DNA from: Hahella sp. CCB-MM4
Lineage (GTDB): Bacteria; Pseudomonadota; Gammaproteobacteria; Pseudomonadales; Oleiphilaceae
DNA: 64,000 bases
NCBI RefSeq assembly: GCF_002260525.1
Contig: NZ_MRYI01000005.1
Location: 124,001 to 188,000 of the forward strand
Direction: 5' to 3'
The position numbers and the translations under genes were made by a program. How positions within the stretch are numbered: position 1 is the stretch's first letter; each line of letters begins with the position of its first letter. The notes under the pieces were generated by a model. That model made no database searches. It was not told the origin of the DNA and saw nothing but the letters and a program-made list of their open reading frames with translations. Below, one piece after another: positions 7,798-62,840 of this stretch.

Positions 7798-7858
7798 TCT
7801 GGAACGAGCCCTTATAGTCTGGGACGAACACTTAATAATCTGGAACGATCACTTATAG
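7798..7858. repeat. Three-copy 20-21 bp tandem repeat in the exbB leader
   Basis: Three adjacent imperfect copies starting at 7798, 7818 and 7839 share the frame TCTGG(A/G)ACGA-x-C-x-CTTA. The last copy ends inside the AGGAGG ribosome site of exbB, so the array forms part of the untranslated leader between the Fur promoter and the start codon. Confidence 0.85.
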
Positions 7859-7866
7859 GAGGTACT

Positions 7867-8304
7867 GTGGAGTCACTTTCCCTGTGGCTGGACGTCGCCG
7901 TGTTTTCCATCCTTGGCAGCATGAGCTTTATTGTGGTCTGGCTCGGCGTGGAACGGGTGCTTTTCCTGAAGCGCCTGCCGGTAGCGAACTATTCCAGTTA
8001 TGACAATCTCACTGTCGATCTCAGCCGTAACATCACCACACTTTACAGTATCGGTGCTAACGCTCCCTATGTCGGTTTGCTGGGCACAGTCGCGGGTATT
8101 CTGTTGACGTTCTATGACATGGGACAAAAAGGCCAAGTGGATGTAAGTGCCGTCATGAGCGGATTGGCGCTGGCCTTGAAGGCGACGGCTCTGGGTCTGG
8201 TGGTGGCAATTCCCACCATTATCCTGGTCAACGGCCTGAATCGGAAGATCGAGGTCAAGCAGGCCATGTGGCGGGCTCACCAACAGCAAGCGACCGGCAA
8301 ATGA
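7867..8304 (+). CDS. exbB: ExbB, TonB-system proton channel (short form)
   Basis: Inner-membrane energiser of 145 residues, the short ExbB type rather than the 240-residue enterobacterial type. The MotA/TolQ/ExbB signature APYVGLLGTVAGILLTFYDMG lies near residues 76-96, followed by ALKATALGLVVAIPTIILVNGL, which contains the conserved polar channel helix. Three membrane segments are visible. The start is GTG with AGGAGG 4 bases upstream, consistent with the leader. Its stop overlaps the exbD start (ATGA). With ExbD it uses the proton gradient to energise TonB. Position behind a Fur box predicts iron repression. Confidence 0.93.
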   Translation: MESLSLWLDVAVFSILGSMSFIVVWLGVERVLFLKRLPVANYSSYDNLTVDLSRNITTLYSIGANAPYVGLLGTVAGILLTFYDMGQKGQVDVSAVMSGLALALKATALGLVVAIPTIILVNGLNRKIEVKQAMWRAHQQQATGK

Positions 8305-8678
8305 AAAAGTTCGACCAGATCAATGTCATTCCCTTTATCGACATCATGCTGGTATTGCTGGCGATCGTACTGACGACCGCAACTTTTGTGGTACAGGGTC
8401 GCATTCCGGTCACACTACCGGAATCCCAACAAGTGGAGTCACCGACAAAGGACAACATTGAGATCACTTTGACCATCGCGTCGGATGAATCCATCTACTG
8501 GAATGATGAAGCCATTGATCTTGAGAGTCTGAACCAACGATTGAAAGGTATTGAAACCCAACCAATTAAATTGCTGGTCGACGCAGAAACCGTCTTTCGC
8601 CGATTTGTGGAAGTGACGGATATCCTTAAGCAACAGTCGTTTAATGACGTCTCCATTCTGGCGAAACGAGCATCATGA
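8301..8678 (+). CDS. exbD: ExbD, TonB-system accessory protein
   Basis: 125-residue inner-membrane protein with one N-terminal helix and a periplasmic domain. The start MKKFDQINVIPFIDIMLVLLAI contains the diagnostic NVIPFIDIMLVLL block, in which the aspartate is the proton-carrying residue of ExbD/TolR proteins. The ATG at 8301 sits in an ATGA overlap with exbB; a GTG at 8268 in frame would only add residues lacking similarity. The end overlaps the tonB start in the same way. It works with ExbB to drive TonB. Confidence 0.93.
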   Translation: MKKFDQINVIPFIDIMLVLLAIVLTTATFVVQGRIPVTLPESQQVESPTKDNIEITLTIASDESIYWNDEAIDLESLNQRLKGIETQPIKLLVDAETVFRRFVEVTDILKQQSFNDVSILAKRAS

Positions 8679-9505
8679 GATATCACGCCATCGGATTCAG
8701 TACCGCACTTGCCCTTCACGCCAGCCTGGTGGCGGCCGGGGTTTGGTGGTATCGCGATCAGGCGGCGCCACCACCCGAGGGAACACCGGTTGCCGTAGCG
8801 ATCAATCAGATCGGATGGTCACAGCCGGAGCCAGTTCCCCTGAATGAAGCAGAGCCCGCTGATGAGAAGATAGATCAGCCTGTGCAGGAAAACTCACCAG
8901 AGCCTGAAGTTGAACCGCCCTACGAAGTCGCTGAAATAGCGTCCGAGCCAACGCCAAGTCCTGAACCCATAGTTGAGAAGAAAACACCAGAGAATCCGGA
9001 AACAACCGAGGTCGCACAACAGCCCGCGAAATCTACTCCGTCACCGCCTGAACAGCCCAAAGAAACACCTGTCGCTGACTTGGAAGAGCCAAAAAAAATG
9101 GCGCCTCAGAAAGAGGAGAACAGCGAAGAGCCGATTCAGGACTCCCCCCAAATAGCCAGCAGTGCCCCCGGTCTCATTGAAGAGCCTGCAATGGATTCAC
9201 CGATCATTGATCCGGCGCTTGAACAGGACTATCTGGCAGCATTGCATCGAGCCTTACAGGACGCCATGCAGTACCCTCGGCGCGCCAAGCGACGCCGCCA
9301 GGAAGGTGTTGCTCTGGTGGAGTTCACGGTTTACCGGGAAGGCCGCCTGGAAGGAATTCAGCTAAGGGAAAGTTCCGGCTTCCCGATTCTCGACGAAGCT
9401 GCTCTGAACACCGTCAGATCCATCAAACAGTTCAAACCTATACCAGAAAAGCTTGCCAAAAACATGCTGACCCTGGCCATTCCCATCAGGTTTGAGCTTC
9501 GCTGA
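8675..9505 (+). CDS. tonB: TonB energy-transducing protein
   Basis: 276 residues. A single membrane anchor (about 8-25) is followed by a long periplasmic spacer (roughly 35-185) dominated by Pro and Glu, and then the TonB C-terminal domain (about 195-276), with YPRRAKRRRQEGVALVEF, the SSGFPILDEAAL block and a final strand ending FELR. The acidic spacer with EP and PE steps is typical for spanning the periplasm. Together with the preceding two genes it forms a dedicated TonB complex, presumably for the receptor encoded just upstream. The gene is coupled to exbD by an ATGA overlap. Confidence 0.95.
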   Translation: MRYHAIGFSTALALHASLVAAGVWWYRDQAAPPPEGTPVAVAINQIGWSQPEPVPLNEAEPADEKIDQPVQENSPEPEVEPPYEVAEIASEPTPSPEPIVEKKTPENPETTEVAQQPAKSTPSPPEQPKETPVADLEEPKKMAPQKEENSEEPIQDSPQIASSAPGLIEEPAMDSPIIDPALEQDYLAALHRALQDAMQYPRRAKRRRQEGVALVEFTVYREGRLEGIQLRESSGFPILDEAALNTVRSIKQFKPIPEKLAKNMLTLAIPIRFELR

Positions 9506-9523
9506 CGGTTAGAGGGGTTTATC

Positions 9524-11629
9524 TCACTCCAGGCGCACCCGATAAACTTCAGATAACGAGGTTGTTCGCTGGCGAGCCAGGTTCAGGGCGTTTTCCGTCA
9601 AGGGCATCATGCCTTCTTTCATTGCCTGGGCATGAATATCGTCCACCGCAACCCCGTGCTGAACAAAAGCATGCATTTCAGAAGACACTTTCAATAGTTC
9701 ATATACGGCAATTCGCCCCTTGTACCCTGTATGGTGGCAGTGATCACATCCCTGCCCTTTATAAAACACTTCCTCTGCAGACACCCCCAGCGATTTCAAT
9801 ACCAGCGGCTCAGGAGTTTCTTCCGCAATGCAATGGGGACAGTTACGCCGCACCAGCCGTTGCGCCAGAACACCCAGCACTGTGGCATTAATCAGGAAAG
9901 GCTCAACCCCCATTTCAATCAGGCGGGTGATCGCGCCAGCAGCATCGTTGGTGTGTAGCGTGCTGAGCACCAGGTGCCCCGTTAAGGCACTTTCCACTGC
10001 GATCTTCCCGGTTTCCTCGTCACGAATTTCTCCGATCATAATGACATCCGGATCGTGCCTGAGAATATGCCGGAGAGCCCGAGCGAATGTGTATCCCGGC
10101 GCCGTGTTCACCTGGATTTGTTCAATACCATCAATGTGGTACTCCACCGGATCTTCCACTGTAATGATATTAACGTTCTGCTTGATGACTTCCTGCAGAG
10201 CCGCATAAAGGGTTGTCGACTTTCCGGAACCGGTAGGCCCAGTCACCAGTATCATGCCGTAGCTTTTATGCAGCAGATCGGTAAACAATTCTTCGTCTCT
10301 GGTGTTAAACCCCAGTTCACTGATCGACAATAATCCTGCATTCAGATTCAGCAGCCGGATCACCACGCTTTCCCCTTCTACCGTGGGGATGATGGAGATC
10401 CTGAGGTCCACAATGGACTCCTGATCCACCACCCGCGAGCGGCCGTCCTGTGGTAACCGCCGTTCCGCAATATCCATCGTGCCCAGAATCTTGATACGAC
10501 TGACCACCGCAGGTAGCAGGTTCTTACTGAAACTACGAATTTTGATCAGGGTTCCATCGATCCGATAGTAAAGATCAACAATGTTTTCCCGTGGCCGGAT
10601 ATGAATATCTGACGCCCGGCGTCTGATGCCCTCCACAATAATGCGGCTGACTAGGCGAATAATGGGGCGTTCCCGGCTGAGCCGTTCCAACTCCCCCACT
10701 TCTTTATCTTTGTGAAAAGAAGCCTCCACCTTTTCCCGGTCGTCCTCGGCTGCCAGGATTTCATCGTCAATCGAACTTTCACCATAGAACTCACCCAGCG
10801 CCTGAAAGATATCGGCTTTACTGGCCGTAACCAGTTCCAGGTGACGATTGGTAATAAATTGCAGGGCATCAATGGCATCCAAGTTACAGGGGTCGTCCAT
10901 TGCCACGACCAACTTTTCATGCTCCAGACTGATGGGCATCAGCAGATAGCGACGGGCAAATTCACCCGGAACCATCGCAATGGCTTCTGGAGAAATCACA
11001 AAGTTCTTCAACTGGATAAACGGAATTCCCAGCTTGCTGGCCAAGGCCCGATGAACTTCTTCATCACTCATCGATTTGGATTTTTCCAGCTCGTCCCGCA
11101 TCTCCCGCGCTTGCTGCATGGCGGGCGATAGCGTGGCCTCAGGCTCTGCAGATAGCTCCGACTCAACTTCGAATTCCTTCATATCCGCACCTGAATAGGG
11201 CTCAATCTGGTAGTTCCTGATTCCAGTCGCCGGTACAAACAGTCGGCAAATTGAGCGTTTATCCTCACAGCGGAACAATGTCAGCCCGGCCTCTGTTGAA
11301 GCAAAGCCCAATGTTTTACCCCTGATTTTCCCCCCATCCTGGAATTCCACAGAGAAACTTTCAGGCTCAGCCGTTCGACCGTTATTTTCCTCAGGGATTA
11401 GTTTATGGGGAAACACCAAATAACGAATCTCGGAAAAATCAATGGTGGTCAGATGCTGGTCGGACTGATCGGCAATTTCCACTTTTTGATTCAGTTCATC
11501 CAGGGACTTCAGAACACTGGGAATCAGATACCCATTGTTGAGATGAACCACCACATCGGCACCCAACAGCGGGCCCTCATTGCTTGTGGCTTCAAATGGC
11601 AACTCGGGAAGGTCAATAGGGGCGTTAAT
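9524..11629 (-). CDS. GspE/PilB-family type II secretion / type IV pilus ATPase, orphan
   Basis: About 701 residues. The C-terminal two thirds is a complete GspE/PilB motor: an N-domain with LASKLGIPFIQLK, then RASDIHIRP, Walker A GPTGSGKSTT, Walker B MIGEIRDEET, the HLVLSTLHTND box and a tetracysteine zinc site (CPHC ... CDHC). The first about 190 residues are an extension not found in standard GspE; two similar beta-rich segments can be seen there (ending IRYLVFP and IRNYQIEP). No pilus or secretion genes are adjacent. The start is odd: AGAAGGAGGTG lies 6 bases before an in-frame ATT at 11629, whereas the TTG at 11686 has no ribosome site. Confidence 0.88.
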   Translation of the reverse strand: MNAPIDLPELPFEATSNEGPLLGADVVVHLNNGYLIPSVLKSLDELNQKVEIADQSDQHLTTIDFSEIRYLVFPHKLIPEENNGRTAEPESFSVEFQDGGKIRGKTLGFASTEAGLTLFRCEDKRSICRLFVPATGIRNYQIEPYSGADMKEFEVESELSAEPEATLSPAMQQAREMRDELEKSKSMSDEEVHRALASKLGIPFIQLKNFVISPEAIAMVPGEFARRYLLMPISLEHEKLVVAMDDPCNLDAIDALQFITNRHLELVTASKADIFQALGEFYGESSIDDEILAAEDDREKVEASFHKDKEVGELERLSRERPIIRLVSRIIVEGIRRRASDIHIRPRENIVDLYYRIDGTLIKIRSFSKNLLPAVVSRIKILGTMDIAERRLPQDGRSRVVDQESIVDLRISIIPTVEGESVVIRLLNLNAGLLSISELGFNTRDEELFTDLLHKSYGMILVTGPTGSGKSTTLYAALQEVIKQNVNIITVEDPVEYHIDGIEQIQVNTAPGYTFARALRHILRHDPDVIMIGEIRDEETGKIAVESALTGHLVLSTLHTNDAAGAITRLIEMGVEPFLINATVLGVLAQRLVRRNCPHCIAEETPEPLVLKSLGVSAEEVFYKGQGCDHCHHTGYKGRIAVYELLKVSSEMHAFVQHGVAVDDIHAQAMKEGMMPLTENALNLARQRTTSLSEVYRVRLE

Positions 11630-11644
11630 AGGACACCTCCTTCT
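11627..11644 (-). promoter_or_regulatory. Strong ribosome binding site preceding an ATT codon
   Basis: Reading the minus strand, AGAAGGAGGTG (complement of about 11634-11644) is followed by TCCT and then ATT in frame with the ATPase. No ATG, GTG or TTG occurs at a suitable distance, so ATT is the best start candidate, a codon known to start infC and pcnB in E. coli. Inference from spacing only. Confidence 0.5.
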
Positions 11645-11684
11645 AGTCAGCCTGGCAGTCGGAATTATGCTGCCTGGTCCAAAC

Positions 11685-11744
11685 AAATACTGCTTAGTCC
11701 GTATAAATGCTTCTTAGTTGGTATAAATATAGTCTGATCTATAG
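11685..11744. repeat. Three-copy 20 bp tandem repeat upstream of the PilB-like gene
   Basis: Copies start at 11685, 11705 and 11725 with the frame AAAT-x-x-x-x-CTTAGT-x-x-GTAT; the third copy is strongly diverged. It lies in the presumed leader of the minus-strand ATPase gene. Confidence 0.75.
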
Positions 11745-30032: not shown

Positions 30033-30111
30033 AATTAGTAAAGCATTTACTTTACTAATTAAAACTTTACTCCTGAAAACCACAATTAGTAAAGCTATCG
30101 CTTTCTTAAAT
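30033..30111. promoter_or_regulatory. Twin operators between VOC gene and Fe-S type regulator
   Basis: Site 1 is a perfect 11-bp inverted repeat AATTAGTAAAG (30033-30043) / CTTTACTAATT (30050-30060) with a 6-base gap. Site 2 repeats the left arm exactly (30084-30094), with the same 6-base gap and a diverged right arm CTTTCTTAAAT (30101-30111). The centres are 51 bp apart. They lie in the divergent promoter region and most likely bind the adjacent regulator. Confidence 0.8.
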
Positions 30112-33676: not shown

Positions 33677-33758
33677 AGCACTTGGTATAAATAGCACTTA
33701 ATAGAAATAGCGCGTGTTATAAGTTGAGCACCTGTTCGAATTAGCATCAGCCCGGCTA
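33677..33758. repeat. Five-copy 16-18 bp tandem repeat before the AraC gene
   Basis: Copies start at 33677, 33693, 33709, 33727 and 33743 (16, 16, 18, 16, 16 bases), each beginning AGC with A/G next; the first two read AGCACTT-x3-TA-x-AAAT. The array ends 4 bases before the AraC start codon, so it forms the 5' leader and could contain or disrupt the promoter. Confidence 0.85.
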
Positions 33759-41931: not shown

Positions 41932-42141
41932 TGCTCTAAATACTCGCCTGGAAGAACGACTATTCCAGCATACCGCTGACCTGGCTTCGTGCGCTCTTAT
42001 ATCACGGGAAGTGATAATCGCTATATCAATGGTCAATTAGTAACCTGCCAGGTCCCCAGGCAAGATAGCCTCAACAGATAAACAAGTGGCCTGCGAAGGC
42101 AAAGCCTTCCCGCCGTAACGCTTGAATAATTGAGGTTTAAC

Positions 42142-42468
42142 ATGAGCGAATTTATTCAGCACATTTCCGAAAGCGAATTCGGCGATGTCGTTATCAAGTC
42201 AGACAAGCCCGTACTGGTAGATTTCTGGGCAGAGTGGTGCGGCCCCTGCCACGCCATCGCTCCTCTCTTGGATGAGCTGGCAGAAGACATGGCCGAAGAT
42301 ATCAAAGTAGTCAAAGTCAACGTTGATGAAAACAGGGATATTGCCGGAGCCATGGGCATCCGCAGCATTCCAACCCTGATCGTCTTCAAAGACGGCAAAG
42401 CCGTCGCCAACCAAAGTGGTGTCGCCGGCTTCGCCCAATTAAAGAATTTTGTGGCTAAAGCGATCTAA
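42142..42468 (+). CDS. trxA: Thioredoxin
   Basis: 108 residues, standard thioredoxin length. Active site WCGPC at 32-36, conserved DFWAEWCGPC strand, cis-Pro in SIPTL and the closing FKDGKAV...GVAGF-x-QL pattern. His37 follows the CGPC motif in place of the common Lys or Arg. The ATG at 42142 has GAGG 6 bases upstream. A strong terminator follows. The gene is monocistronic. It may be one of several thioredoxins in the genome. Confidence 0.95.
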   Translation: MSEFIQHISESEFGDVVIKSDKPVLVDFWAEWCGPCHAIAPLLDELAEDMAEDIKVVKVNVDENRDIAGAMGIRSIPTLIVFKDGKAVANQSGVAGFAQLKNFVAKAI

Positions 42469-42479
42469 AGCCCCCGTTA

Positions 42480-42508
42480 GGAGCAGTGCCCTGCTGCTCC
42501 GTTTTTTT
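42480..42508 (+). terminator. Intrinsic terminator of the thioredoxin gene
   Basis: GGAGCAG (42480-42486), 7-base loop, CTGCTCC (42494-42500) and G followed by seven T residues. Directly after the stop codon of the thioredoxin gene. Confidence 0.9.
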
Positions 42509-42537
42509 GAATACTTTGCTCCGTTTTTTGAATACTT
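42493..42537 (+). repeat. Two-copy 20-21 bp tandem duplication of the terminator tail
   Basis: The 3' arm and T-run with GAATACTT are duplicated: GCTCCGTTTTTTTGAATACTT ends at 42516 and the copy GCTCCGTTTTTTGAATACTT ends at 42537, differing by one T. The second copy lacks a 5' partner arm of its own. Confidence 0.85.
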
Positions 42538-44942: not shown

Positions 44943-44990
44943 ATTTAACTTCTACCGGTGGTCAATTTCTACCAATGGTCAATTTCTACC
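44943..44990. repeat. Three-copy 17 bp tandem repeat in the RND leader
   Basis: GGTCAATTTCTACCAAT (44960-44976) is followed by GGTCAATTTCTACC (44977-44990) and preceded by a diverged copy ending in TTCTACCGGT (to 44959). A related GGTCAATTC occurs once more just before the ribosome site of the MFP gene. Confidence 0.9.
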
Positions 44991-45043: not shown

Positions 45044-46363
45044 ATGAATACTGTTTTAACTGACACCAGTCTGGGACTGCGTCGTCGTATAGTCCTTGCC
45101 AGAAATAGTCTTTTCGGACTGACAGGGTTATTGCTGATGACTGCCTGCAGCGCCCCGGCTGAACCTCAGCAACAGCAATCCCAACCACCGTTGCCGGTTG
45201 TCAGTGTGGCTCCCGTCGTAAGCGAAACCATTACGGAATGGGACGAGTTTACCGGACGACTTGAAGCAACCGAGACCGTCACCCTGCGTCCACGGGTATC
45301 CGGTTATATTGAGAACGTTGCCTTCGAAGAGGGAGCACTGGTTAATAAGGGAGATCTGCTGTTCGAAATAGATGCCCGCCCTTATCAGGCAGAAGTTTCA
45401 CGCTTGCGGGCAGAACTGAAATCGGCCCAATCCAAACAGGCATTGGCTGAAAGTGATCTGAAACGTGCCCAATCGCTGAAAAGCCAGAATGCCATATCTA
45501 TCGAACAAGTGGACAACCGGGCCGCAGACAAAGATCAGGCTATTGCCCAGGTAGAAGCAACTTCGGCAGCCCTGGAATCCGCTTTATTGAACCTTAGCTA
45601 CACCAAAGTGAAAGCTCCTATTAGCGGTCGTGTTTCCCAGGCCCTGATTACCGAGGGTAACTACGTGCAGGCTGGACAGTCCGAGCTCACCACGCTGGTT
45701 TCCACCGATAAGGTGCACGCATACTTCGATGCCGATGAGCAGACATTCCTGGAATATCGTGCCATGTACAAGGCTCAGTCCAAAGGTGATGCCAAAGCCG
45801 ACAAAACACCAGTGTTCATGCGCTTGTCCAATGAAGACAATTATCCCCATCTGGGATATGTGGATTTCATCGACAACCAGGTCAACCCACAAACTGGAAC
45901 CATTCGCGCCCGTGCGGTATTCGACAACACGGATAACCAATTCACTCCTGGACTGTTTGTCAGAGTAAAACTGGCTGCCAGCCCACAATACGAAGCGGTT
46001 CTGGTCAGCGACCGTGCCATCGGTACTGACCTCAACAACAAGTATGTACTGGTACTAACCGATGACAACCGCGTGGAATATCGTGGCATCCAATTGGGGC
46101 CAAAAATCGAGGACATGAGAATTATCCGCACCGGTTTGAAAGGTAATGAAAAAATTGTGGTGAATGGCTTACAAAGGGTACGTCCTGGCTCTCAGGTTCA
46201 GACGGAAACCGTCTCAATGTTCAGTGAAGAGTCTTTGCAGCAGCTTTATAGCCAGCAGCAGATTGTTGAAGATAGCCGACAGCAGCTGGATCCTCCGCTG
46301 ACTGCAGAGCGTACGCCGACAGTTGACAAGATCGATTCTGCAACGACTGAGCCTCGCGGCTGA
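45044..46363 (+). CDS. RND efflux membrane fusion protein 1 (MexE/AcrA type)
   Basis: 439 residues, a lipoprotein (lipobox LMTA-Cys at about residue 35) that bridges pump and outer-membrane channel. Order: barrel-sandwich half EWDEFTGRLEATETVTLRPRVSGYIENV (in parts), coiled hairpin rich in Ala/Gln/Glu (about 115-180), second lipoyl half KAPISGRVSQ, beta-barrel FMRLSNEDNYPHLG and membrane-proximal domain. AAGGAG precedes the ATG. It is strongly similar to the second MFP at 51359. First gene of the efflux cluster; terminal 40 residues are Gln/Ser rich and variable. Confidence 0.95.
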   Translation: MNTVLTDTSLGLRRRIVLARNSLFGLTGLLLMTACSAPAEPQQQQSQPPLPVVSVAPVVSETITEWDEFTGRLEATETVTLRPRVSGYIENVAFEEGALVNKGDLLFEIDARPYQAEVSRLRAELKSAQSKQALAESDLKRAQSLKSQNAISIEQVDNRAADKDQAIAQVEATSAALESALLNLSYTKVKAPISGRVSQALITEGNYVQAGQSELTTLVSTDKVHAYFDADEQTFLEYRAMYKAQSKGDAKADKTPVFMRLSNEDNYPHLGYVDFIDNQVNPQTGTIRARAVFDNTDNQFTPGLFVRVKLAASPQYEAVLVSDRAIGTDLNNKYVLVLTDDNRVEYRGIQLGPKIEDMRIIRTGLKGNEKIVVNGLQRVRPGSQVQTETVSMFSEESLQQLYSQQQIVEDSRQQLDPPLTAERTPTVDKIDSATTEPRG

Positions 46364-46395: not shown

Positions 46396-49300
46396 ATGAA
46401 TTTTTCCCAGTATTTTATCCAGCGCCCCATATTAGCCGGGGTGCTGTCGATTCTGATTTTTATCGCCGGGGCGATATCGGTATTTGAATTACCGATTACC
46501 GAATACCCGGAAGTCGTTCCGCCTACAGTCGTCGTTAGAGCGAATTATCCCGGCGCTAACCCCAAGGTTATTGCGGAAACGGTAGCTTCGCCTCTTGAGC
46601 AGGCGATTAACGGTGTGGAAGACATGTTGTATATGTCTTCACAGTCCACTTCTGACGGCCGACTCAGCCTGACGGTCACGTTCGCGTTGGGGACTGATCT
46701 GGACAAAGCCCAGGTGCAGGTACAAAACCGCGTTGACCGCGCGCTGCCCCGGTTACCCGAAGAAGTGCAGAGACTTGGGGTGGTAACAGAAAAGTCCTCG
46801 CCGGATCTCACCATGGTGGTTCACATCACCTCACCGGATAATCGCTATGACATGCTGTACCTGTCCAACTATGCGGTGCTCAACGTTAAAGACGAGCTGG
46901 CTCGTATTGATGGGGTTGGTGACGTCAGGGTATTCGGTGCAGGAGATTACTCTCTGCGCATCTGGCTTGATCCTGAGAAAGTGGCCAGCCTGAATCTCAC
47001 TACTTCCGATGTTATTCAGGCTATTCGTGAGCAAAACCGCCAGGCCGCCGCTGGTGCAATTGGTTCCCCTCCTTCAGCCAGCACCAGCGAGTTCCAGCTT
47101 CTGATCAATGTGAAAGGGCGTCTCCAATCTGAAGATGAGTTTGCCAACATCATTGTTCGGGTTGGTGATCATGGCGAAATTACCCGTCTTAGCGATATCG
47201 CACGCATTGAACTGGGTGCCAACTCTTACGCGCTGCGTTCACTTCTGAACAACCAGCCGGCTGCCGCCTTACCGATATTCCAACGTCCCGGATCCAATGC
47301 CATTGAGATTTCCGAAAACGTTCGTGCCACCATGGCGGAGTTGAAAAAGACCTTCCCGGAAGGGGTGGATTATTCCATCGTTTATGACCCTACGGTGTTT
47401 GTAAAAGGATCGATTAAAGCGGTCGTCAAAACGCTGCTGGAAGCGATACTTCTGGTTGTCGTGGTCGTCGTGCTGTTCCTGCAAACCTGGCGTGCATCCG
47501 TCATCCCATTGGTGGCGGTACCGGTTTCGTTAGTCGGCACCTTCGCGGTCATGCACTTGTTCGGTTTTTCTCTCAATGCGTTGTCTCTGTTTGGCCTGGT
47601 ACTGGCAATAGGGATTGTGGTCGACGACGCCATCGTGGTGGTGGAAAACGTCGAACGAAACATCGAAATGGGCAAGTCGCCGATTGAGGCCACCAAGCAG
47701 GCAATGAAAGAGGTTACCGGCCCGATTATTGCCACCTCGCTGGTATTGAGCGCGGTATTTATTCCGACCGCTTTTATTTCAGGTCTGACAGGTCAGTTTT
47801 ATAAGCAGTTTGCCCTGACCATTGCGATTTCGACCATCATATCCACCTTTAACTCTCTGACATTGAGCCCGGCGTTGGCAGCCGTATTGTTGAAAGGACA
47901 CGACAGCAAGAAGGACCTGCCCACGCGTATCATGGACAAACTGTTCGGGGTTTGGCTGTTTGCGCCGTTTAACCGATTCTTCAATGGGTTATCCAACGTC
48001 TATACCTTTGGCGTCAAACGGCTGATCCGTGGCAGCGCCATTGTGGTACTGGTCTATGGAGGTTTATTGGCCCTGACTTATCAACAGTTTGCCAACACCC
48101 CTACCGGCTTTGTTCCAGGACAGGACAAGCAATATCTGGTGTCATTTGCCCAGTTGCCGGATGCCGCCAATCTGGACCGGACTGAAGCGGTGATCCGGGA
48201 AATGTCCCGAATCGCCATGGAACATCCCGGCGTGGATTCTGCGGTAGCGTTTCCTGGGTTGTCCATCAATGGTTTCACCAACAGCCCTAATGCCGGGATT
48301 GTTTTTGTGACTCTGAAACCATTCGAGGAGCGCAAGGATCCAGGCATGTCAGCGGGAGCTATTGCCGGGCAGCTCAATCAGCAGTTTGCCAGCATTAAAG
48401 AATCCTTTGTTGCCATATTCCCGCCGCCTCCTGTTCAGGGCCTTGGCACCATCGGAGGATTTAAACTGCAGGTGGAAGACCGTTCCAGTCTGGGTTACGA
48501 AGAACTGTTTTCTCAGACTCAGAAAGTCATCCAGAAAGCCTGGCAAACGCCAGAACTTACCGGCATTTTTTCCAGCTTCCAGGTAAATGTTCCTCAGATC
48601 GACGTGGATGTGGACCGGGAAAAAGCCAAAACACACGGCATTCCGCTGAATGACATTTTCGATACAATGCAGGTTTACCTGGGTTCCCTATACGTCAACG
48701 ACTTCAACATGTTTGGTCGCACCTACCAAGTGAACGTCCAGGCGGAACAGAATTTCCGTGAAGACGCTGACCAGATCGACAAACTCAAGGTTCGTAATCA
48801 GTTTGGCGACATGGTACCTCTGGCCTCATTTGTGGACGTGAGCCACACTGCAGGTCCGGATCGGGTCATGCATTACAACGGCTACCCGACTGCCGAAATC
48901 AACGGTGCACCAGCACCTGGATACAGCTCCGGGCAGGCAGAAGCAGCCATTACCAAAATCCTGGAAAGTGAATTACCGAACGGTATGACATTTGAGTGGA
49001 CAGACCTGACTTATCAGCAGATTCTGGCCGGTAACACTGCAGCCTACGTCTTCCCGCTGGTCGTACTTCTGGTATTCCTGGTTCTGGCCGCCCAGTATGA
49101 AAGCTGGTCGCTTCCTCTGGCAATTATCCTGATTGTCCCGATGACCCTGTTGTCCGCCATGACCGGTGTGATACTCAAGGGTGGAGACAACAACATATTC
49201 ACTCAGATCGGCCTGATCGTACTGGTGGGCCTGGCGACTAAAAACGCCATTCTGATCGTGGAATTCGCCAAGGAGAAAGAAGACGAAGGCTTGCCGCTCC

Positions 49301-49584
49301 TGGATGCCATTATAGAAGCCAGCAAGTTGCGTCTGCGTCCCATATTGATGACGTCACTGGCCTTCATCATGGGGGTTGTCCCACTGGTATTCTCTTCCGG
49401 TGCCGGTGCCGAAATGCGCCAGGCAATGGGCATTGCCGTGTTCTCCGGCATGATCGGGGTGACTCTGTTCGGCCTGTTGTTGACCCCGGTATTTTATTAC
49501 CTCGTGCGTCGCTTCCTCGCGAAGCGCCGCTCACCGGCCCCCTCTTCAGATGAGCCCGTGAATGCGGAGGTGGTCCATGGCTGA
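46396..49584 (+). CDS. RND efflux transporter 1 (HAE1 family)
   Basis: 1062 residues, the proton-driven inner-membrane pump. It begins with the canonical FIQRPI ... PITEYPEVVPP start; the two large periplasmic loops are in place and the proton relay in helix 4 reads GIVVDDAIVVVENVER. Late helices GLATKNAILIVEFAKE and RPILMTSLAFIMGVVPLV are standard for MexF/AcrB-like exporters of hydrophobic drugs. The gene follows the MFP by 32 bases and overlaps the OMF start. It appears intact. Very similar to the pump at 52574. Confidence 0.96.
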   Translation: MNFSQYFIQRPILAGVLSILIFIAGAISVFELPITEYPEVVPPTVVVRANYPGANPKVIAETVASPLEQAINGVEDMLYMSSQSTSDGRLSLTVTFALGTDLDKAQVQVQNRVDRALPRLPEEVQRLGVVTEKSSPDLTMVVHITSPDNRYDMLYLSNYAVLNVKDELARIDGVGDVRVFGAGDYSLRIWLDPEKVASLNLTTSDVIQAIREQNRQAAAGAIGSPPSASTSEFQLLINVKGRLQSEDEFANIIVRVGDHGEITRLSDIARIELGANSYALRSLLNNQPAAALPIFQRPGSNAIEISENVRATMAELKKTFPEGVDYSIVYDPTVFVKGSIKAVVKTLLEAILLVVVVVVLFLQTWRASVIPLVAVPVSLVGTFAVMHLFGFSLNALSLFGLVLAIGIVVDDAIVVVENVERNIEMGKSPIEATKQAMKEVTGPIIATSLVLSAVFIPTAFISGLTGQFYKQFALTIAISTIISTFNSLTLSPALAAVLLKGHDSKKDLPTRIMDKLFGVWLFAPFNRFFNGLSNVYTFGVKRLIRGSAIVVLVYGGLLALTYQQFANTPTGFVPGQDKQYLVSFAQLPDAANLDRTEAVIREMSRIAMEHPGVDSAVAFPGLSINGFTNSPNAGIVFVTLKPFEERKDPGMSAGAIAGQLNQQFASIKESFVAIFPPPPVQGLGTIGGFKLQVEDRSSLGYEELFSQTQKVIQKAWQTPELTGIFSSFQVNVPQIDVDVDREKAKTHGIPLNDIFDTMQVYLGSLYVNDFNMFGRTYQVNVQAEQNFREDADQIDKLKVRNQFGDMVPLASFVDVSHTAGPDRVMHYNGYPTAEINGAPAPGYSSGQAEAAITKILESELPNGMTFEWTDLTYQQILAGNTAAYVFPLVVLLVFLVLAAQYESWSLPLAIILIVPMTLLSAMTGVILKGGDNNIFTQIGLIVLVGLATKNAILIVEFAKEKEDEGLPLLDAIIEASKLRLRPILMTSLAFIMGVVPLVFSSGAGAEMRQAMGIAVFSGMIGVTLFGLLLTPVFYYLVRRFLAKRRSPAPSSDEPVNAEVVHG

Positions 49585-52573: not shown

Positions 52574-55500
52574 ATGAACTTCTCACAATTTTTTATTCAG
52601 CGGCCGATCTTCGCCAGCGTATTATCGTTTCTGATTCTGATCGCCGGTTTGATCTCCATGTTTCAACTCCCCATTACGGAATATCCGGAAGTTGTCCCCC
52701 CGACGGTGGTTGTACGTGCCAACTATCCCGGAGCCAGCCCTGAAGTCATCGCTGAAACCGTCGCCTCTCCTTTGGAACAGGCAATCAACGGCGTGGAAAA
52801 CATGCTGTACATGTCCTCCCAGTCCACCTCTGATGGTGCTCTGGGAATTACGGTGACCTTCGCTCTGGGCACTAATCTGGATGATGCACAGGTGGCCGTC
52901 CAGAACAGGGTCAGCCGGGCGTTGCCTCGACTACCTGAGGAAGTTCAGCGTCTGGGCGTGGTGACGGAAAAATCCTCTCCTGATCTTTCCATGGTGGTCC
53001 ATTTACTGGCACCGGATAACCGCTACGACATGCTGTATCTGTCCAACTATGCCGAGCTCTACGTCAAAGACGAGCTAGCCAGGATAGAGGGAGTCGGCCA
53101 GTCACTGGTTTTCGGCGCAGGGGAATATGCGCTGCGAATCTGGCTTGATCCTGAAAAAGTGGCCGCCCTGAATCTGGCAACCACGGATGTGATCGCCGCC
53201 GTCCAGGAACAGAACCGGCAGGTTGCCGCAGGTACAATCGGCGCTCCCCCGGCAACCACCGCCAGTGACTTTACTCTGACCGTCAGTGTGAAAGGACGGC
53301 TGGATAATGTGGAAGAATTCGAGAATATCGTTGTCCGGGTAAGTGATGACGGAGCCGTCACCCGCCTCAAGGATATTGCCAGAGTGGAGCTTGGCTCCAG
53401 CAGCTATGCCATGCGCTCCCTATTGGACAACAAGCCCGCGGCAGCCATCGCGATCTTCCAAAGCCCCGGCTCCAATGCCATTGAAATTTCCGACAATGTA
53501 CGAGCCAAAATGGAAGAGCTCAAAGCCTCTTTCCCGGAAGGGGTGGATTACAACATTGTCTATGACCCGACTATATTCGTTCGCGGCTCTATTGAAGCCG
53601 TGGTGAAAACACTGCTTGAAGCCATCATGCTGGTGGTGATCGTGGTGGTCCTGTTCCTGCAGACCTGGCGGGCGTCCATCATTCCCCTTGTCGCGGTGCC
53701 GGTTTCCCTGATCGGGACTTTTGCCATCATGCAACTGTTTGGGTTTTCCCTGAATGCATTGTCATTGTTCGGGCTGGTTCTGGCGATCGGGATCGTGGTG
53801 GATGACGCTATCGTGGTGGTGGAAAATGTCGAGCGAAATATCCACCTTGGCAAGCCGCCGATTGAAGCGACCAAGCAAGCCATGCGCGAGGTGACCGGAC
53901 CAATTATCGCCACTTCACTGGTGTTGAGCGCCGTCTTTATCCCTACAGCATTTATCTCCGGGCTGACAGGTCAATTCTATAAGCAGTTTGCTCTGACTAT
54001 TGCGATCTCGACCATTATCTCAACCATCAACTCGCTGACGCTGAGCCCGGCTCTTTCAGCATTACTGCTGAAACCACATGATGCCAAGAAAGACCTGTTG
54101 ACCAGGTTGCTGGACGGTGTTTTCGGATTTTGGCTGTTCCGTCCGTTTAATGCCTTTTTCAGCAGGTTATCGCATGGATATACCTGGTCCGTTCACAAGG
54201 TCATTCGGGGCAGTGCCATCATTCTGCTGATCTATGGTGGATTGATTTACCTGGGATACCATCAGTTCACCACCACACCCACTGGTTTTGTTCCACAACA
54301 GGACAAGCAGTACCTGATTTCATTTGCGCAACTGCCTGATGCAGCAACTCTGGACCGTACCGAAGAAGTCATTCGCCGCATGTCCTCGATTATTCTGGAA
54401 CATCCGGGTGTGGAATCTGCGGTGGCATTTCCAGGTCTTTCCATTAACGGTTTTGTTGCTGCCCCCAATGCAGGGATTGTGTTCGTCACCCTGAAGCCCT
54501 TTGATCAACGAAAAGATCCAAGTCTTTCCGCCGGGGCAATCGCCGGTGCCCTGAACCAGAAACTGTTCGGTATACAGGAAGCCTTCCTTGCCATTTTTCC
54601 TCCACCTCCGGTATTGGGATTAGGCACCATCGGCGGATTCAAGCTGCAAATAGAAGACCGCGCTAACCAGGGTTATGAAGCACTCTATGCACAGACTCAA
54701 CGGGTATTGCAGAGGGCCTGGCAGAGTCCGGAGCTGACGCAGGTCTTCTCGGGATACCAGGTGAAGGTCCCGCAGATCGAAGTCGATGTGGACCGGGAGA
54801 AAGCCAAGTCTCACGGCGTGTCCCTCAACGATGCCTTTGCCACCATGCAGGTGTACCTGGGCTCCTTATATGTAAACGACTTCAACGAGTTTGGCCGTAC
54901 CTATCAGGTGAAAGTCCAGGCGGAAGCACGTTTTCGGGAGGAAGCAGAACAGATTACCCGGCTCAAAGTTCGCAATGCGGATGGAGAGATGATTCCCCTG
55001 GGAAGCTTTGTCACGATTCGGCACACCGCCGGGCCGGACATGGTACAGCACTATAACGGCTATACCGCTGCCGACATTAATGGCGGACCCGCCCCAGGCT
55101 ATAGCTCCGGACAGGCTGAAGCGGTAATCACCAGGATTCTCGAAGAAGAGCTGGGCAATGGCTTCGGCTTTGAATGGACAGACCTGACCTACCAACAGAT
55201 TTTGGCGGGTAACACGGCTGTGTACATTTTCCCCCTGGTAGTTCTGCTGGTATTTCTGGTGCTGGCCGCGCAATACGAAAGCTGGACGCTACCGCTGTCG
55301 ATAATCCTGATTGTGCCGATGACACTGATGTCAGCGATGACCGGCGTCATTCTCTCCGGAGGCGACAACAACATCTTCACCCAGATAGGACTGATCGTTC
55401 TGGTGGGTCTCGCTACCAAAAACGCGATCTTGATCGTCGAGTTTGCCAAAGATAAAGAATTGGAAGGTATGAGTCTCATTGAGGCCGTCAAGGAAGCCTG

Positions 55501-55756
55501 CCATTTAAGATTACGGCCCATTCTCATGACCTCCCTGGCATTCATCATGGGCGTTGTTCCCCTGGTCATCTCCACCGGGGCCGGGGCTGAGATGCGTCAG
55601 GCCATGGGTACCGCCGTATTTTCAGGTATGATTGGGGTAACCTTCTTCGGTTTGTTGCTGACACCAGTGTTCTACTATCTGGTGCGTCACTTCATTGATC
55701 GCAAGTCGACCCGGCCGGAACCACTCGAGGACGAGGTACCCAGCCCTAACCTTTAG
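52574..55756 (+). CDS. RND efflux transporter 2 (HAE1 family)
   Basis: 1060 residues, paralogue of the pump at 46396; most blocks are identical or conservatively changed (start FIQRPIF, GIVVDDAIVVVENVERNI, TFEWTDL versus GFEWTDLTYQQILAGNTA). The proton relay Asp pair is intact. Differences concentrate in the periplasmic docking and pore loops and the C-terminal tail, suggesting different substrates or a heteromeric pump. It has AAAGGA just before the ATG. Last gene of the cluster. Confidence 0.96.
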   Translation: MNFSQFFIQRPIFASVLSFLILIAGLISMFQLPITEYPEVVPPTVVVRANYPGASPEVIAETVASPLEQAINGVENMLYMSSQSTSDGALGITVTFALGTNLDDAQVAVQNRVSRALPRLPEEVQRLGVVTEKSSPDLSMVVHLLAPDNRYDMLYLSNYAELYVKDELARIEGVGQSLVFGAGEYALRIWLDPEKVAALNLATTDVIAAVQEQNRQVAAGTIGAPPATTASDFTLTVSVKGRLDNVEEFENIVVRVSDDGAVTRLKDIARVELGSSSYAMRSLLDNKPAAAIAIFQSPGSNAIEISDNVRAKMEELKASFPEGVDYNIVYDPTIFVRGSIEAVVKTLLEAIMLVVIVVVLFLQTWRASIIPLVAVPVSLIGTFAIMQLFGFSLNALSLFGLVLAIGIVVDDAIVVVENVERNIHLGKPPIEATKQAMREVTGPIIATSLVLSAVFIPTAFISGLTGQFYKQFALTIAISTIISTINSLTLSPALSALLLKPHDAKKDLLTRLLDGVFGFWLFRPFNAFFSRLSHGYTWSVHKVIRGSAIILLIYGGLIYLGYHQFTTTPTGFVPQQDKQYLISFAQLPDAATLDRTEEVIRRMSSIILEHPGVESAVAFPGLSINGFVAAPNAGIVFVTLKPFDQRKDPSLSAGAIAGALNQKLFGIQEAFLAIFPPPPVLGLGTIGGFKLQIEDRANQGYEALYAQTQRVLQRAWQSPELTQVFSGYQVKVPQIEVDVDREKAKSHGVSLNDAFATMQVYLGSLYVNDFNEFGRTYQVKVQAEARFREEAEQITRLKVRNADGEMIPLGSFVTIRHTAGPDMVQHYNGYTAADINGGPAPGYSSGQAEAVITRILEEELGNGFGFEWTDLTYQQILAGNTAVYIFPLVVLLVFLVLAAQYESWTLPLSIILIVPMTLMSAMTGVILSGGDNNIFTQIGLIVLVGLATKNAILIVEFAKDKELEGMSLIEAVKEACHLRLRPILMTSLAFIMGVVPLVISTGAGAEMRQAMGTAVFSGMIGVTFFGLLLTPVFYYLVRHFIDRKSTRPEPLEDEVPSPNL

Positions 55757-55783
55757 AGTCTATCGACATCAAAGGAGACCAAC

Positions 55784-58117: not shown

Positions 58118-58205
58118 AGTTCACGTATAGCAACAGGAGTTCCCGTAACAATATGGCCCACGTATCAATACAGCTCACATATCAACACAGTTCACGTATC
58201 AATCT
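58118..58205 (-). repeat. Five-copy 17 bp tandem repeat spanning the AraC stop codon
   Basis: Copies start at 58118 (20 bases), 58138, 58155, 58172 and 58189 (17 bases each), consensus AGTTCACGTATCAAYAC on the plus strand. The copy at 58189 encodes the last residues of the AraC protein (LIREL), the others continue beyond the stop. The array looks like repeated duplication of the 3' end of the gene. Confidence 0.9.
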
Positions 58206-59054
58206 GGCAGGGGTCACGCCGTACTCCCGTTTGAACTGGGCAGCAAAGTGGCTCTGGTGGGAGAAACCGCAGGCAGCAGCCACATATGCCTGGCCATATC
58301 CTTTCTGGAGCATTTCCATTCCCTTCCGTACACGGATTTTACTGACATACTGGTGGGGCGTCAGACCGGTACTCTGCTTAAACATCCGGGCAAAATGGAA
58401 AAGACTCAGGCCGCTGACAGTGGCCAGCTTTTCCAGATGTATCTCTTCGCCGGCGTGGGCATGAATATATTCCATCACCGACGTTAGCTGGCGGCGACTC
58501 AACCCTCCCCTGAGTGCTTCAGTTACCGGCTGATGGCGAACAAAGGCCTGAATCAAACACCCCATGACGCCGTAAAATGCCTGCTGGAGATGTAAACGCT
58601 CACTGACAGCATGCCAGGGAACATTCATCACAGAATGGCAGAGTCGTGCGAGTTCCGGATGATCTGCGAATGTCAGATCGGGGAGTCTGACCAGACGGGG
58701 GTCGATATCAAATGATTCCAGGGCAAAGAACTTTAGCGCGGCGTCAGAAACGTAGAAATGAACAAACTCCTGCCCTTCACCCACCACCCACTCAGAATCC
58801 TGTGTCGCCGGCATCAGGCAAAGTTTCCCGGGGCTGCCCTTACCTGCACTCGGCATATCCAGCCGGTGGGTATCATTCCCCCCAGTCAAATAAAGGCTTA
58901 CCGTGTGATGTCCGACCTTATGGTAGCTGACTCTGTCCCGCTGATTACTCCAATGGGCCAATGACAGATCCTGATTCAGGACACAGTAATCCAACTGCGT
59001 GGCTTTTGAGCCATTCAGGGCATCTCTGACATTGTTTAGTTGAGTTCTTTGCAT
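58182..59054 (-). CDS. AraC-family regulator
   Basis: 290 residues from the ATG at 59054. N-terminal half is a diverged sensing domain; the C-terminal domain (about 190-290) has both helix-turn-helix motifs, HLEKLATVSGLSLFHFARMF and AYVAAACGFSHQSHFAAQF, and ends GVTPARLIREL. Such regulators commonly control the divergent neighbour, here an EamA exporter. Possible upstream extension to 59144 (TTG) is not favoured. The last codons lie within a 17 bp tandem repeat. Confidence 0.9.
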   Translation of the reverse strand: MQRTQLNNVRDALNGSKATQLDYCVLNQDLSLAHWSNQRDRVSYHKVGHHTVSLYLTGGNDTHRLDMPSAGKGSPGKLCLMPATQDSEWVVGEGQEFVHFYVSDAALKFFALESFDIDPRLVRLPDLTFADHPELARLCHSVMNVPWHAVSERLHLQQAFYGVMGCLIQAFVRHQPVTEALRGGLSRRQLTSVMEYIHAHAGEEIHLEKLATVSGLSLFHFARMFKQSTGLTPHQYVSKIRVRKGMEMLQKGYGQAYVAAACGFSHQSHFAAQFKREYGVTPARLIRELC

Positions 59055-59247
59055 AGAGCCAAAATATGTCGAATCGTCGCGTTGTACAACCCGGTAAATT
59101 CTATCGTTTCGAAGAAAACCGCAAGATTTTGCTAATTTCCGCAATTTCCTGCGCGTAATATACCTGACTCCCGCAGTACGCTGATAACTCCCGGGATCAA
59201 TCTACCTGATTGGGGCTCTTTATCCTGTATTGAACGGAATCCAAACG

Positions 59248-60162
59248 ATGAATTTAGCTTTATACCTTACCACTGTGTTTATCTGGGGAACGACCTGGCT
59301 GGCCATTCATTTCCAGGTAGGCGAAGTTCCAGTGCTTATATCCATTTTTTATCGATTCGCCCTCGCAGGAATGCTGTTCTTACCACTCCTGATGCTGTTG
59401 AATAAGAGACAGACCACCAGCTTAAAGGATCATGGTTTTTTTCTCCTACAGGGAGCCTGTCTGTTTTCGTTTAATTTTATCTGCTTTTATTACGCCAGCG
59501 GCTATATTGTCAGCGGGTTGATTTCAGTCGTATTTTCACTGGCGACCTTATTTAATGCCTTTAACAATCGCCTGATCTGGAAACAGAAGATCGCTCCTGC
59601 GGTCATCGTCGCCACCCTGTTCGGTCTGGCAGGACTCATCATGTTGTTCTGGGACAGCATTCTGGGCGACAGTTTTGATCGTCAGACCCTGCTCGGCCTG
59701 GGCCTTTGCGCTGTCGGCACATTCCTGTTTTCCCTGGGGAATATGGTGTCCGTACGACACACCCGCAACGGATTGAAACCCTGGACAACCAACGCTTACG
59801 CGATGATCTACGGTGCACTGATTCTGCTGGTTTGTATTGTGGTGACCGGCACCCCCTGGTCAATCAGCCGGGAACCGGTTTACCTGGGGAGTCTGCTCTA
59901 TCTGGCAATCCCTGGGTCCATTATCGGCTTTACCACTTACCTTAGTCTGGTGGCACGTCTGGGAGCCAACCAGGCAGCCTATGCCACTGTCATGTTTCCC
60001 GTTGTGGCCCTGACCATTTCGTCCTGGGTGGAAAACTACCAATGGAACACGATGAGCTTTACCGGATTGTTCCTGGTGCTTGCAGGAAATTCCATTGCTC
60101 TGGGGGGGTGGCAGCGACTTCGTCAGTATCAACTGAGGCTCACTGCCGCCCGAACCGGATAG
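59248..60162 (+). CDS. EamA/DMT-family exporter
   Basis: 304 residues, ten membrane helices in two repeats (FIWGTTWLAIHFQVGEVPVLISIFYRF start; second repeat from about residue 150, SLGNMVSVRHTRNGL). Typical DMT exporter of amino acids or other metabolites. The ATG at 59248 is chosen; the TTG at 59230 has no ribosome site. Divergent from the AraC regulator with about 190 bases between. A second AraC-EamA pair lies at 33763-35616. Confidence 0.92.
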   Translation: MNLALYLTTVFIWGTTWLAIHFQVGEVPVLISIFYRFALAGMLFLPLLMLLNKRQTTSLKDHGFFLLQGACLFSFNFICFYYASGYIVSGLISVVFSLATLFNAFNNRLIWKQKIAPAVIVATLFGLAGLIMLFWDSILGDSFDRQTLLGLGLCAVGTFLFSLGNMVSVRHTRNGLKPWTTNAYAMIYGALILLVCIVVTGTPWSISREPVYLGSLLYLAIPGSIIGFTTYLSLVARLGANQAAYATVMFPVVALTISSWVENYQWNTMSFTGLFLVLAGNSIALGGWQRLRQYQLRLTAARTG

Positions 60163-60216: not shown

Positions 60217-60284
60217 AATTTGTGACAAGCCTTAATTTGTTACAAGCCTTTCTGTTACGAGCTTTTTCATTCACGGGCCAACAG
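60217..60284. repeat. 17 bp tandem repeat downstream of the EamA gene
   Basis: AATTTGTGACAAGCCTT (60217-60233), AATTTGTTACAAGCCTT (60234-60250) and TCTGTTACGAGCTTTTT (60251-60267) follow each other with exact 17-bp period; a fourth, eroded copy may extend to 60284. Confidence 0.88.
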
Positions 60285-62019: not shown

Positions 62020-62054
62020 CGGCCACAGACAGGCTTCTCATTGCAGGCGTATAA

Positions 62055-62095
62055 TGCATGACGGGAGGACAACTCTTCTGTCCTCCCGTCATGCA
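62055..62095. repeat. Perfect 17-bp inverted repeat after the acyl-CoA ligase gene
   Basis: TGCATGACGGGAGGACA (62055-62071), 7 bases, and its exact complement (62079-62095). The stem can be extended with a bulge (GCAGG ... CCTGC). It ends 4-5 bases before the GGAGGAG ribosome site of the next gene; lacks a T-run. Confidence 0.8.
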
Positions 62096-62114
62096 CCTGC
62101 GGAGGAGCCTTGAC

Positions 62115-62750
62115 ATGCTGATTGCACGTTCGTTCCCAGCCGGCAGAGAAGCAGTCGCCAGCCCATTCTCAAATATACAGACATCTATCATGCTTGCCCT
62201 GATCGGTGGCATTGGAGACGGAACCGCTTGCTTCGTCATCCATGAGCTTATGAAACCGGGGCCGCTCATTAACTATATCGCCCGCTTTGGTCCAGGTATC
62301 ATTCTCGGCGCTTTGATGATCTTTTGGCTTCAGGCTCATCATCAATTGACGTCCCGCGAACGAATATCCGTAATGTTCAAGGTTACCCTGGGATGGGCAT
62401 TGATTGTCCCTCTGCTGAGCTGGAGTTCCCACCAATCGGCCCCGCTGTTCTGGGGCTCTATTGTCGGTGCTTCAGTATTAGGGGTGCTCGCTGTCACTGC
62501 AGCGCTTACTCCTTATTTCAATGACACCTGGTCAGACCGTGTACTGTTGTCTCAATGGGTCCCGCTTTCCATTGTTACAGGAGTCATCGGCTCGCTGTGT
62601 TTTGTCGGTATCATGCAATTCGGTTGGTTACATGATTGGCCTGGATACAGTCAGAGAATTCTGGCCAATGTACTGCTCTTTACTCCCTGGACCGCAAGCC
62701 TGCTGATGGCCGCCTGGAAATACGTGGAAAAAGAACCGTTGCCTGAGTAG
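62115..62750 (+). CDS. Multi-pass membrane protein of unknown function
   Basis: 211 residues with about six hydrophobic segments (roughly 28-48, 55-75, 90-108, 112-132, 150-172, 180-200). No transporter or enzyme motif was recognised. The ATG at 62115 is chosen because GGAGGAG sits 7 bases before it; the in-frame ATG at 62058 lies inside the upstream palindrome. A perfect 17-bp hairpin directly precedes the ribosome site and may control translation. Same strand as the acyl-CoA ligase, 95 bases downstream. Confidence 0.7.
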   Translation: MLIARSFPAGREAVASPFSNIQTSIMLALIGGIGDGTACFVIHELMKPGPLINYIARFGPGIILGALMIFWLQAHHQLTSRERISVMFKVTLGWALIVPLLSWSSHQSAPLFWGSIVGASVLGVLAVTAALTPYFNDTWSDRVLLSQWVPLSIVTGVIGSLCFVGIMQFGWLHDWPGYSQRILANVLLFTPWTASLLMAAWKYVEKEPLPE

Positions 62751-62760
62751 CCGATCAGGT

Positions 62761-62840
62761 ATTAGCTGTTCTTGTGCCCGGGTAGCAGTTCTATTAATCG
62801 AGTGGCAGTTCTGTTAACAAAATAACTATTCCGGTATTTG
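62761..62840. repeat. 20 bp tandem repeat between convergent genes
   Basis: GTAGCAGTTCTATTAATCGA (62782-62801) and GTGGCAGTTCTGTTAACAAA (62802-62821) are clear copies; a diverged copy precedes (62761-62781, containing GCTGTTCTT) and one follows (from 62822) that contains the stop and last codons of the minus-strand gene. Confidence 0.8.

Follow-up and report, generated by a model that had tools for sequence, protein, structure and literature searches.

Satellites of prokaryotes, built from short units repeated head to tail, were surveyed by Subirana and Messeguer (2019; PMC6749651). In the sections of that survey drawn on here, ~40% of the satellites are unique to their locus and their density differs greatly between species. 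Animals and plants, too, acquire small tandem duplications (Schimmel et al., 2021; PMC8355091). The relevant parts of that paper place them at staggered breaks, where both overhangs are filled in and rejoined. This route is reported to need Ku80, and Pol alpha-primase with CST, the Ku requirement being stated for mammalian cells. A third system is formed by the small dispersed repeats of cyanobacteria which, in the brief account of PMC2884548 (citing Elhai et al.), are ~20 bp long and occur in tandem in varying copy number. Here we describe short tandem arrays in the genome of Hahella sp. CCB-MM4, starting from a stretch of 64 kb (C107:124001-188000 of the 6.66 Mb draft genome; hereafter 'the window'). 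We conclude that a lineage-specific, largely neutral duplication of 15-24 bp segments, in place, probably yields these minisatellites.

By anatomy the arrays are minisatellites. They consist of head-to-tail copies of a 10-60 bp unit and the unit is specific to the locus, as in other minisatellites or variable-number tandem repeats (VNTRs). A hump in their periods and a contrast within one bacterial family make them an unusual variant. With the satellites of PMC6749651 they share head-to-tail units of the 10-30 nt class, units unique to the locus and, in the passages compared, periods in multiples of 3 that are taken as coding. However, the same passages require at least four regular repeats and relate short-repeat satellites to microsatellites. 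The portion of that text used here contains no 15-24 bp hump, no two-copy births and no lineage contrast in one family. Like the duplications treated in the excerpts of PMC8355091, the arrays are short tandem duplications; unlike that system, Ku was not found in this genome. The cyanobacterial repeats, in the lines of PMC2884548 that concern them, are described as dispersed and possibly mobile, whereas the units here are largely unrelated between loci. No such hump was described in any title or abstract found by our literature search.

The initial annotation of the window had listed ten arrays, each with an unrelated unit, and had proposed a nearly fixed period, often 17 bp. We scanned the window with Tandem Repeats Finder (TRF) at a score of at least 50, repeated the scan at a score of at least 40 and checked the list down to 30. 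All ten arrays are in the sequence; nine were recovered at a score of at least 50 (best scores 50-79) and the tenth is recognised by 58% self-match at lag 20. At TRF scores of at least 40, the window contained 11 arrays of period 15-24, compared with a mean of 0.35 per dinucleotide-shuffled window (n = 20). The best score among the 20 shuffled windows was 58. The weaker listed arrays (scores 50 and 54) are singly within chance and the whole set is beyond it; put differently, a strong array is convincing by itself, and a weak one only as a member of the set. In a test for known structured RNA elements, the window had no Rfam match at the gathering threshold.

The analysis was extended to 1,352,891 bases in four contigs of the 6.664 Mb genome, which are not a random sample. 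Short contigs L012-L021 and L058-L061 were left out of this set, L062 was left out of the own-genome counts, and L102, L103 and L118 were left out of the multi-genome scan. We used an ungapped self-match scan for periods 6-100, keeping the best period at each place. Genes were called by a crude longest open reading frame (ORF) rule; the division into intergenic and coding arrays is thus approximate, and the rule may favour periods divisible by 3 within ORFs. For periods of 6-14, 15-24, 25-50 and 51-100 there were 19, 94, 20 and 4 intergenic arrays, and 9, 45, 11 and 20 coding arrays. A single shuffle of all 1.35 Mb gave 2, 1, 1 and 7 arrays in the same classes. For the individual periods from 15 to 24 the intergenic counts were, in order, 4, 7, 16, 13, 9, 12, 13, 10, 4 and 6. 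Just above this range, the counts were 0 for period 25, 4 for period 26 and 3 for period 27. Among intergenic arrays with periods of 10-40 the median was 19.5 (quartiles 17-22). TRF, run on the same sequence at a score of at least 50, counted 84, 7 and 6 intergenic arrays for periods of 15-24, 10-14 and 25-34, respectively; one shuffle of the whole sample gave 3, 0 and 1. Hence, the predicted peak is present by both methods, and shuffled sequence, whether of the window or of the 1.35 Mb, is nearly devoid of such arrays. The nearly fixed period did not hold up; the period instead forms a hump, mostly at 15-24 bp. Satellites built as multimers of a 3-8 bp motif were also considered, and the arrays do not fit this description. 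Period 15-24 wins in the scan of periods 6-100, and TRF, which covers periods 3-5 too, returns 15-24 at the 84 intergenic places.

The edges of the hump were compared with simulated detection. Detection increases with period and the drop above period 24 is therefore not a detection effect. Arrays of three or four copies were detected at rates of 0.54-0.95 for periods 8-14, so part at least of the weaker drop under period 15 is real. For two-copy arrays the lower edge of the hump is partly a detection effect, and the comparison does not extend to those much shorter than 15 bp.

Array density differs sharply between relatives, a comparison that the initial annotation had proposed. The density of intergenic arrays of period 15-24 is 69.5 per Mb in this genome, compared with 42.9 in G015 (12 in 280 kb), 50 in G012 (14 in 280 kb) and 50 in G024 (3 in 60 kb). 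The hump is seen in two other genera of the family. Hahella ganghwensis (G006) has 10.5 per Mb, from a single array in 95 kb (Poisson probability at this genome's rate 0.01). No such array was found in 220 kb of the same-genus genomes G001, G004 and G005 (2e-7) or in 200 kb of G007, G016 and G029 (9e-7). There was also none in 50 kb of Escherichia coli K-12, which is weak evidence (0.03), and no period 15-24 array in L118 (20 kb of G031). The stretches of the relatives were picked by position and not randomly, and mapping gains and losses onto a tree would take more than these ten relatives. The array-rich genomes G012, G015 and G024 are single-contig genomes; hence, errors in draft assembly are not the cause.

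The arrays behave as added DNA. H. ganghwensis DSM 17046 is the closest relative for the first window protein searched, and its contig agrees in gene order with the right part of the window and with the region past its end. In the collinear stretches, arrays of period 15-24, coding ones included, number 16 in 78 kb here and 2 in 75 kb of H. ganghwensis. The spacers are too diverged for nucleotide alignment to be of use. For each of 52 orthologous intervals, length was taken from the aligned end of one protein to that of its neighbour, unaligned gene ends included. All 11 array-holding intervals are longer here than in H. ganghwensis (median +75 bp; sign test p 0.001), although picking intervals by the presence of an array biases toward longer ones. 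The 41 array-free intervals have a median difference of -8 bp. None of the 11 H. ganghwensis counterparts of array-holding intervals has an array. In the reverse case, of two intervals with an array in H. ganghwensis, the H. ganghwensis interval is the longer in one. Within genes, the protein of ORF 35625-36671 has a single gap relative to its 86% identical H. ganghwensis ortholog, a 19-residue insertion here, at the array. The G001 counterpart also lacks the repeat; in three further loci the ORF rule recovered no ortholog. These longer intervals and the insertion support the view, already put forward for the window, that local duplication makes new leaders, 3' ends and residues.

A comparable case occurs in another genus, g7. 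An interval of G012 in which three arrays were scored spans 407-457 bp between aligned blocks, compared with 68 bp in G024, 67 bp in G038 and 135 bp in G040, all without such arrays. For G039, which could be aligned only over a wider span of the same interval, the lengths were 187 versus 988 bp. The G012 spacer concerned (L093:15783-16206) exceeds 400 bp and carries three adjoining arrays of different periods; its three congeners have ~70-135 bp. Elsewhere on the same contig, a ~120 bp match that recurs in genus g7 (L093:17547-17673) is an ordinary tRNA-Glu gene with its flank.

The arrays were also placed with respect to genes. Periods of 15-24 are multiples of 3 in 43 of 45 coding arrays, compared with 36 of 94 intergenic arrays (p 1.6e-11). 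This bias is expected from selection on a process that is blind to frame, and the ORF rule may contribute to it. Array density falls from 1.2 per kb between convergent genes through 0.63 per kb between tandem genes to 0.40 per kb between divergent genes. Arrays overlap, or lie within 20 bp of, the stop codon at 38 of 90 gene ends and the start at 27 of 92. In 19 cases an array spans the stop codon, and in 16 of these at least one other copy also has a stop at that place.

The units at different loci are largely unrelated, much as the initial annotation had claimed. For the first 60 of 139 units, the mean best pair identity was 0.556, compared with 0.551 for shuffled units; the top three pairs, at 0.87-0.88, lie above the maximum of 0.81 reached after shuffling. 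A dispersed repeat family, such as repetitive extragenic palindromes (REP) or small dispersed repeats (SDR), does not fit, with no sequence common to the loci among these 60 units. Units have a mild excess of TA-containing triplets and a mildly low GC. As a shared motif this was rejected; TA steps are not clearly at the duplication boundary, and sense and antisense counts of TAG and CTA are equal (30 and 30). Unit length is independent of GC (rho 0.05), and a model in which melting sets the length was rejected for this reason. The mean number of copies rises from 2.23 in arrays of at least 95% identity (12 arrays) to 3.54 below 80% (20 arrays). Simulated detection of two-copy arrays falls from 0.97 at 95% identity to 0.46 at 78%, and the trend of copy number with age is thus partly a matter of detection. 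Separately, C1:546883-546971 holds adjoining 18- and 17-bp arrays with related units, as if an edge copy had seeded a second duplication.

The listed arrays of the window illustrate these placements. Array 7798-7858 (+), with three copies of 20-21 bp (TRF 78, period 21), is immediately followed by a likely ribosome site and ORF 7867-8304(+). Array 11667-11744 (-), with three copies of 20 bp, covers the start and leader of ORF 9524-11686(-), a type II/IV secretion ATPase (T2SSE, Pfam); its TRF scores were 49 and 62 (11677/11685-11729) and its ungapped scan score was 17. Array 33677-33758 (+) is degenerate, with three to five copies of 16 bp (TRF 50 at 33677-33722; lag-16 identity 58%). It ends just before the start of ORF 33763-34518(+), which is AraC-type (Pfam). 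Array 34674-34717 (+), found by TRF with three copies of 15 bp, codes for the first residues (MSQRC MSQPR MPQR..) of ORF 34675-35616(+), an EamA transporter (Pfam). The H. ganghwensis ortholog starts 5 residues shorter, as judged by eye. Three copies of 18 bp at 36397-36449 (-) (TRF 36409-36449) lie within ORF 35625-36671(-), the PhyH-type dioxygenase (Pfam) whose insertion is described above.

The remaining listed arrays are as follows. Array 42495-42537 (+; two copies of 21 bp; TRF) is downstream of ORF 42130-42468(+), in an interval 64 bp longer than in H. ganghwensis. Array 44943-44990 (+; 2.6 copies of 17 bp; TRF 44950-44990) is upstream of ORF 45044-46363(+), a membrane-fusion protein (Pfam), and its interval is 13 bp longer than in H. 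ganghwensis. Array 58118-58205 (-; 3.5-5 copies of 17 bp; TRF 58144-58203) lies over the 3' end of ORF 58182-59144(-), which is AraC-type (Pfam). Here the interval is 98 bp longer than in H. ganghwensis, and TGA is found at the stop-codon position in 3 of 4 counted copies. Array 60217-60266 (+; two to three copies of 17 bp; TRF 60217-60250) is downstream of the EamA ORF 59230-60162(+) (Pfam), in an interval 62 bp longer than in H. ganghwensis. The very degenerate array 62761-62840 (three to four copies of 20 bp, no strand assigned) is located between ORF 62058-62750(+) and the 3' end of ORF 62826-63959(-). It was missed by TRF even at a score of at least 30; its self-match at lag 20 is 35 of 60 positions, compared with 13-35% at other lags from 15 to 25. 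Two further arrays were not in the original list. Array 30049-30080 (2.1 copies of 15 bp, no strand assigned; TRF 43) and coding array 49128-49164 (+; 2.1 copies of 18 bp; TRF 53), in ORF 46396-49584(+), are each, alone, within the chance range set by the shuffled maximum. ORFs 46396-49584 and 52574-55756 (1062 and 1060 residues) are 94-96% identical to syntenic H. ganghwensis genes and lie near the membrane-fusion gene. From size and setting, they may belong to a putative efflux-type cluster.

The period hump, the largely unrelated units, the differences between lineages, the longer orthologous intervals and the in-frame bias are direct observations. They suggest the following course of events. 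A mutational process, active in some lineages of the family and weak or absent in the rest, would copy head to tail whatever 15-24 bp segment it strikes. The duplications would persist where the damage is slight, which means spacers, the surroundings of stop codons, the positions immediately before ribosome sites and, in frame, the interior of genes. Afterwards, slippage between copies would add units and substitutions would erode them. At birth, the copy would most likely be set beside the original mostly without pairing of short repeats, for example by fill-in and rejoining of a break with opposite-strand nicks 15-24 nt apart.

The ends of the arrays bear on this birth step. Of 40 intergenic arrays of at least 88% identity, 29 have a matched length that differs by no more than 0.2 from an integral number of units, although this set was limited to arrays matched over the period minus 3 or more, which favours near-whole units. 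A larger set, of 75 intergenic arrays of at least 85% identity from four array-rich genomes, was compared with simulations. Overhangs of at least 2 bp occur in 22 of the 75; a first simulation gave ~19 without microhomology and ~62-64 with 2-4 bp of it. In a fuller simulation, overhangs of 2-5 bp were expected in 22% of arrays without microhomology and in 40-71% with microhomology of 2-5 bp; the observed value is 20%. These comparisons go part of the way to showing that microhomology of 2-5 bp is not the rule at birth.

Several observations weigh against the duplication process that we favour. First, the array-poor samples do contain coding arrays of period 15-24: two in G001, G004 and G005, three in G007, G016 and G029, one in E. 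coli and one in H. ganghwensis. Second, a threshold-free autocorrelation of spacers fails to separate the groups. The excess at lags 15-24 is 5.4% in this genome, 4.9% in G001, G004 and G005, 5.6% in E. coli, 2.7% in H. ganghwensis and 0.6% in G007, G016 and G029. Third, the lower edge of the hump is soft, with 12 intergenic arrays of at least 2.5 copies for periods 8-14 and 48 for periods 15-24. Fourth, units are richer in AT than their flanks (GC 0.372 versus 0.442; 63 arrays, p 2.5e-6), and the same tendency is seen in arrays of other genomes (0.388 versus 0.425; 19 arrays, p 0.053). Fifth, 27 of the 75 arrays (36%) are at least 2 bp short of a whole unit, compared with 12% in the simulation without microhomology, and 35% are within 1 bp of a whole unit, compared with 62%. 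Simulated substitutions fail to account for the short arrays. The shortfall could be explained by insertions and deletions (indels), filler bases at the junction, or wrapped overhangs of 6-8 bp or more, and some arrays may have used microhomology. Finally, none of seven gene families tested separates array-rich from array-poor genomes.

The gene families deserve comment. Ku (PF02735) was found in 2 of 38 genomes, the array-poor G016 and G017, whose array density was not sampled; this genome, G012, G015 and G024 have none. Hence, small tandem duplication that depends on Ku does not fit, with Ku absent from all four array-rich genomes; it is absent from most array-poor genomes too. As the search returned no Ku gene for this genome, any such rejoining would need to do without it. 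The fill-in of staggered breaks itself is a possible but doubtful version of the birth step. The Pol I 5'-nuclease domain is present in 37 of 38 genomes and Piwi in none of the 38. Reverse transcriptases occur in both array-rich and array-poor genomes. An ATP-dependent ligase is present in this genome, G006, G007, G015 and G016, and not in G012 or G024. ExoI and RecC were each found in 11 of 11 genomes.

Alternatively, a displaced strand of ~20 nt, produced by Okazaki fragment or repair synthesis, could be sealed in untrimmed, forming a loop and then a duplication. Such misjoining of flaps or repair patches is one version of the birth step proposed above and does not exclude it. The length of the patch would supply a natural ruler of 15-24 nt with an upper edge, and Ku, absent here, is not required. 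Conversely, the array-rich genomes do carry the Pol I 5'-nuclease domain. In mutants of flap nucleases the duplications have short repeats at their flanks, and the arrays here mostly do not, which also counts against this route. We regard it as rather unlikely.

Ordinary replication slippage, by strand misalignment between short direct repeats 15-24 bp apart, had been suggested as a mechanism from the outset. Overhangs of 4-7 bp are indeed found in some arrays, such as C1:40404 and C107:63947, and the excess of arrays short of a whole unit may include wrapped long overhangs. However, overhangs of 2-5 bp are no more frequent than in the simulation that lacks microhomology, and well below the range that slippage predicts. 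Neither the restriction to certain lineages nor the steep fall above 24 bp is expected of generic slippage. The overhang simulations thus speak against pairing of 2-5 bp repeats as the general birth step, and slippage may apply to a part of the arrays. It would also act later, older arrays having more copies, with the proviso on detection made above. As the source of the arrays as a whole, we consider slippage unlikely.

A different proposal is that the arrays are tandem sites for DNA- or RNA-binding proteins, or spacing elements, that selection maintains close to starts and stops. The many arrays at these places, and the mild excess of TA-containing triplets common to units, are in keeping with this. 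In contrast, there is no common unit, the 11 orthologous intervals in H. ganghwensis have no array, and copies occur in frame within genes. Moreover, density peaks between convergent genes and is lowest between divergent ones, the opposite of a promoter role. Selected regulatory arrays are accordingly very unlikely, and the spacing effect of a DNA-binding protein, which had been suggested for the window, is not supported, given the absence of a common unit and of arrays at orthologous places.

Footprints of mobile elements, left as target-site duplications after excision, or small mobile repeats, are a highly improbable source. Duplication without 2-5 bp microhomology does resemble target-site duplication. 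However, there is no common unit family among the 60 units compared and no fixed length, and arrays of three to five copies are common; long and variable target duplications are rare in any case. Lastly, chance or low-complexity sequence read as repeats could produce the weakest arrays, which fall below TRF thresholds or within shuffled maxima, but is negligible as an explanation of the set, which the shuffles refute as chance and which is missing from several relatives.

The duplication of 15-24 bp segments in place, favoured here, touches on an old question. The birth of minisatellites is usually argued from single loci, and this genome offers many births of different ages. Close relatives have few or no arrays in their samples, and the cause can thus be approached through gene content and by watching mutations arise. 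The arrays also show how a compact bacterial genome can enlarge its spacers, leaders and protein repeats. We tentatively propose that some lineages may have an activity, or may have lost a safeguard, such that segments of 15-24 nt are copied and rejoined without Ku and mostly without microhomology, which would be a mutational signature not so far described in bacteria. If this is true, the signature would steadily make new spacer DNA and new protein repeats.

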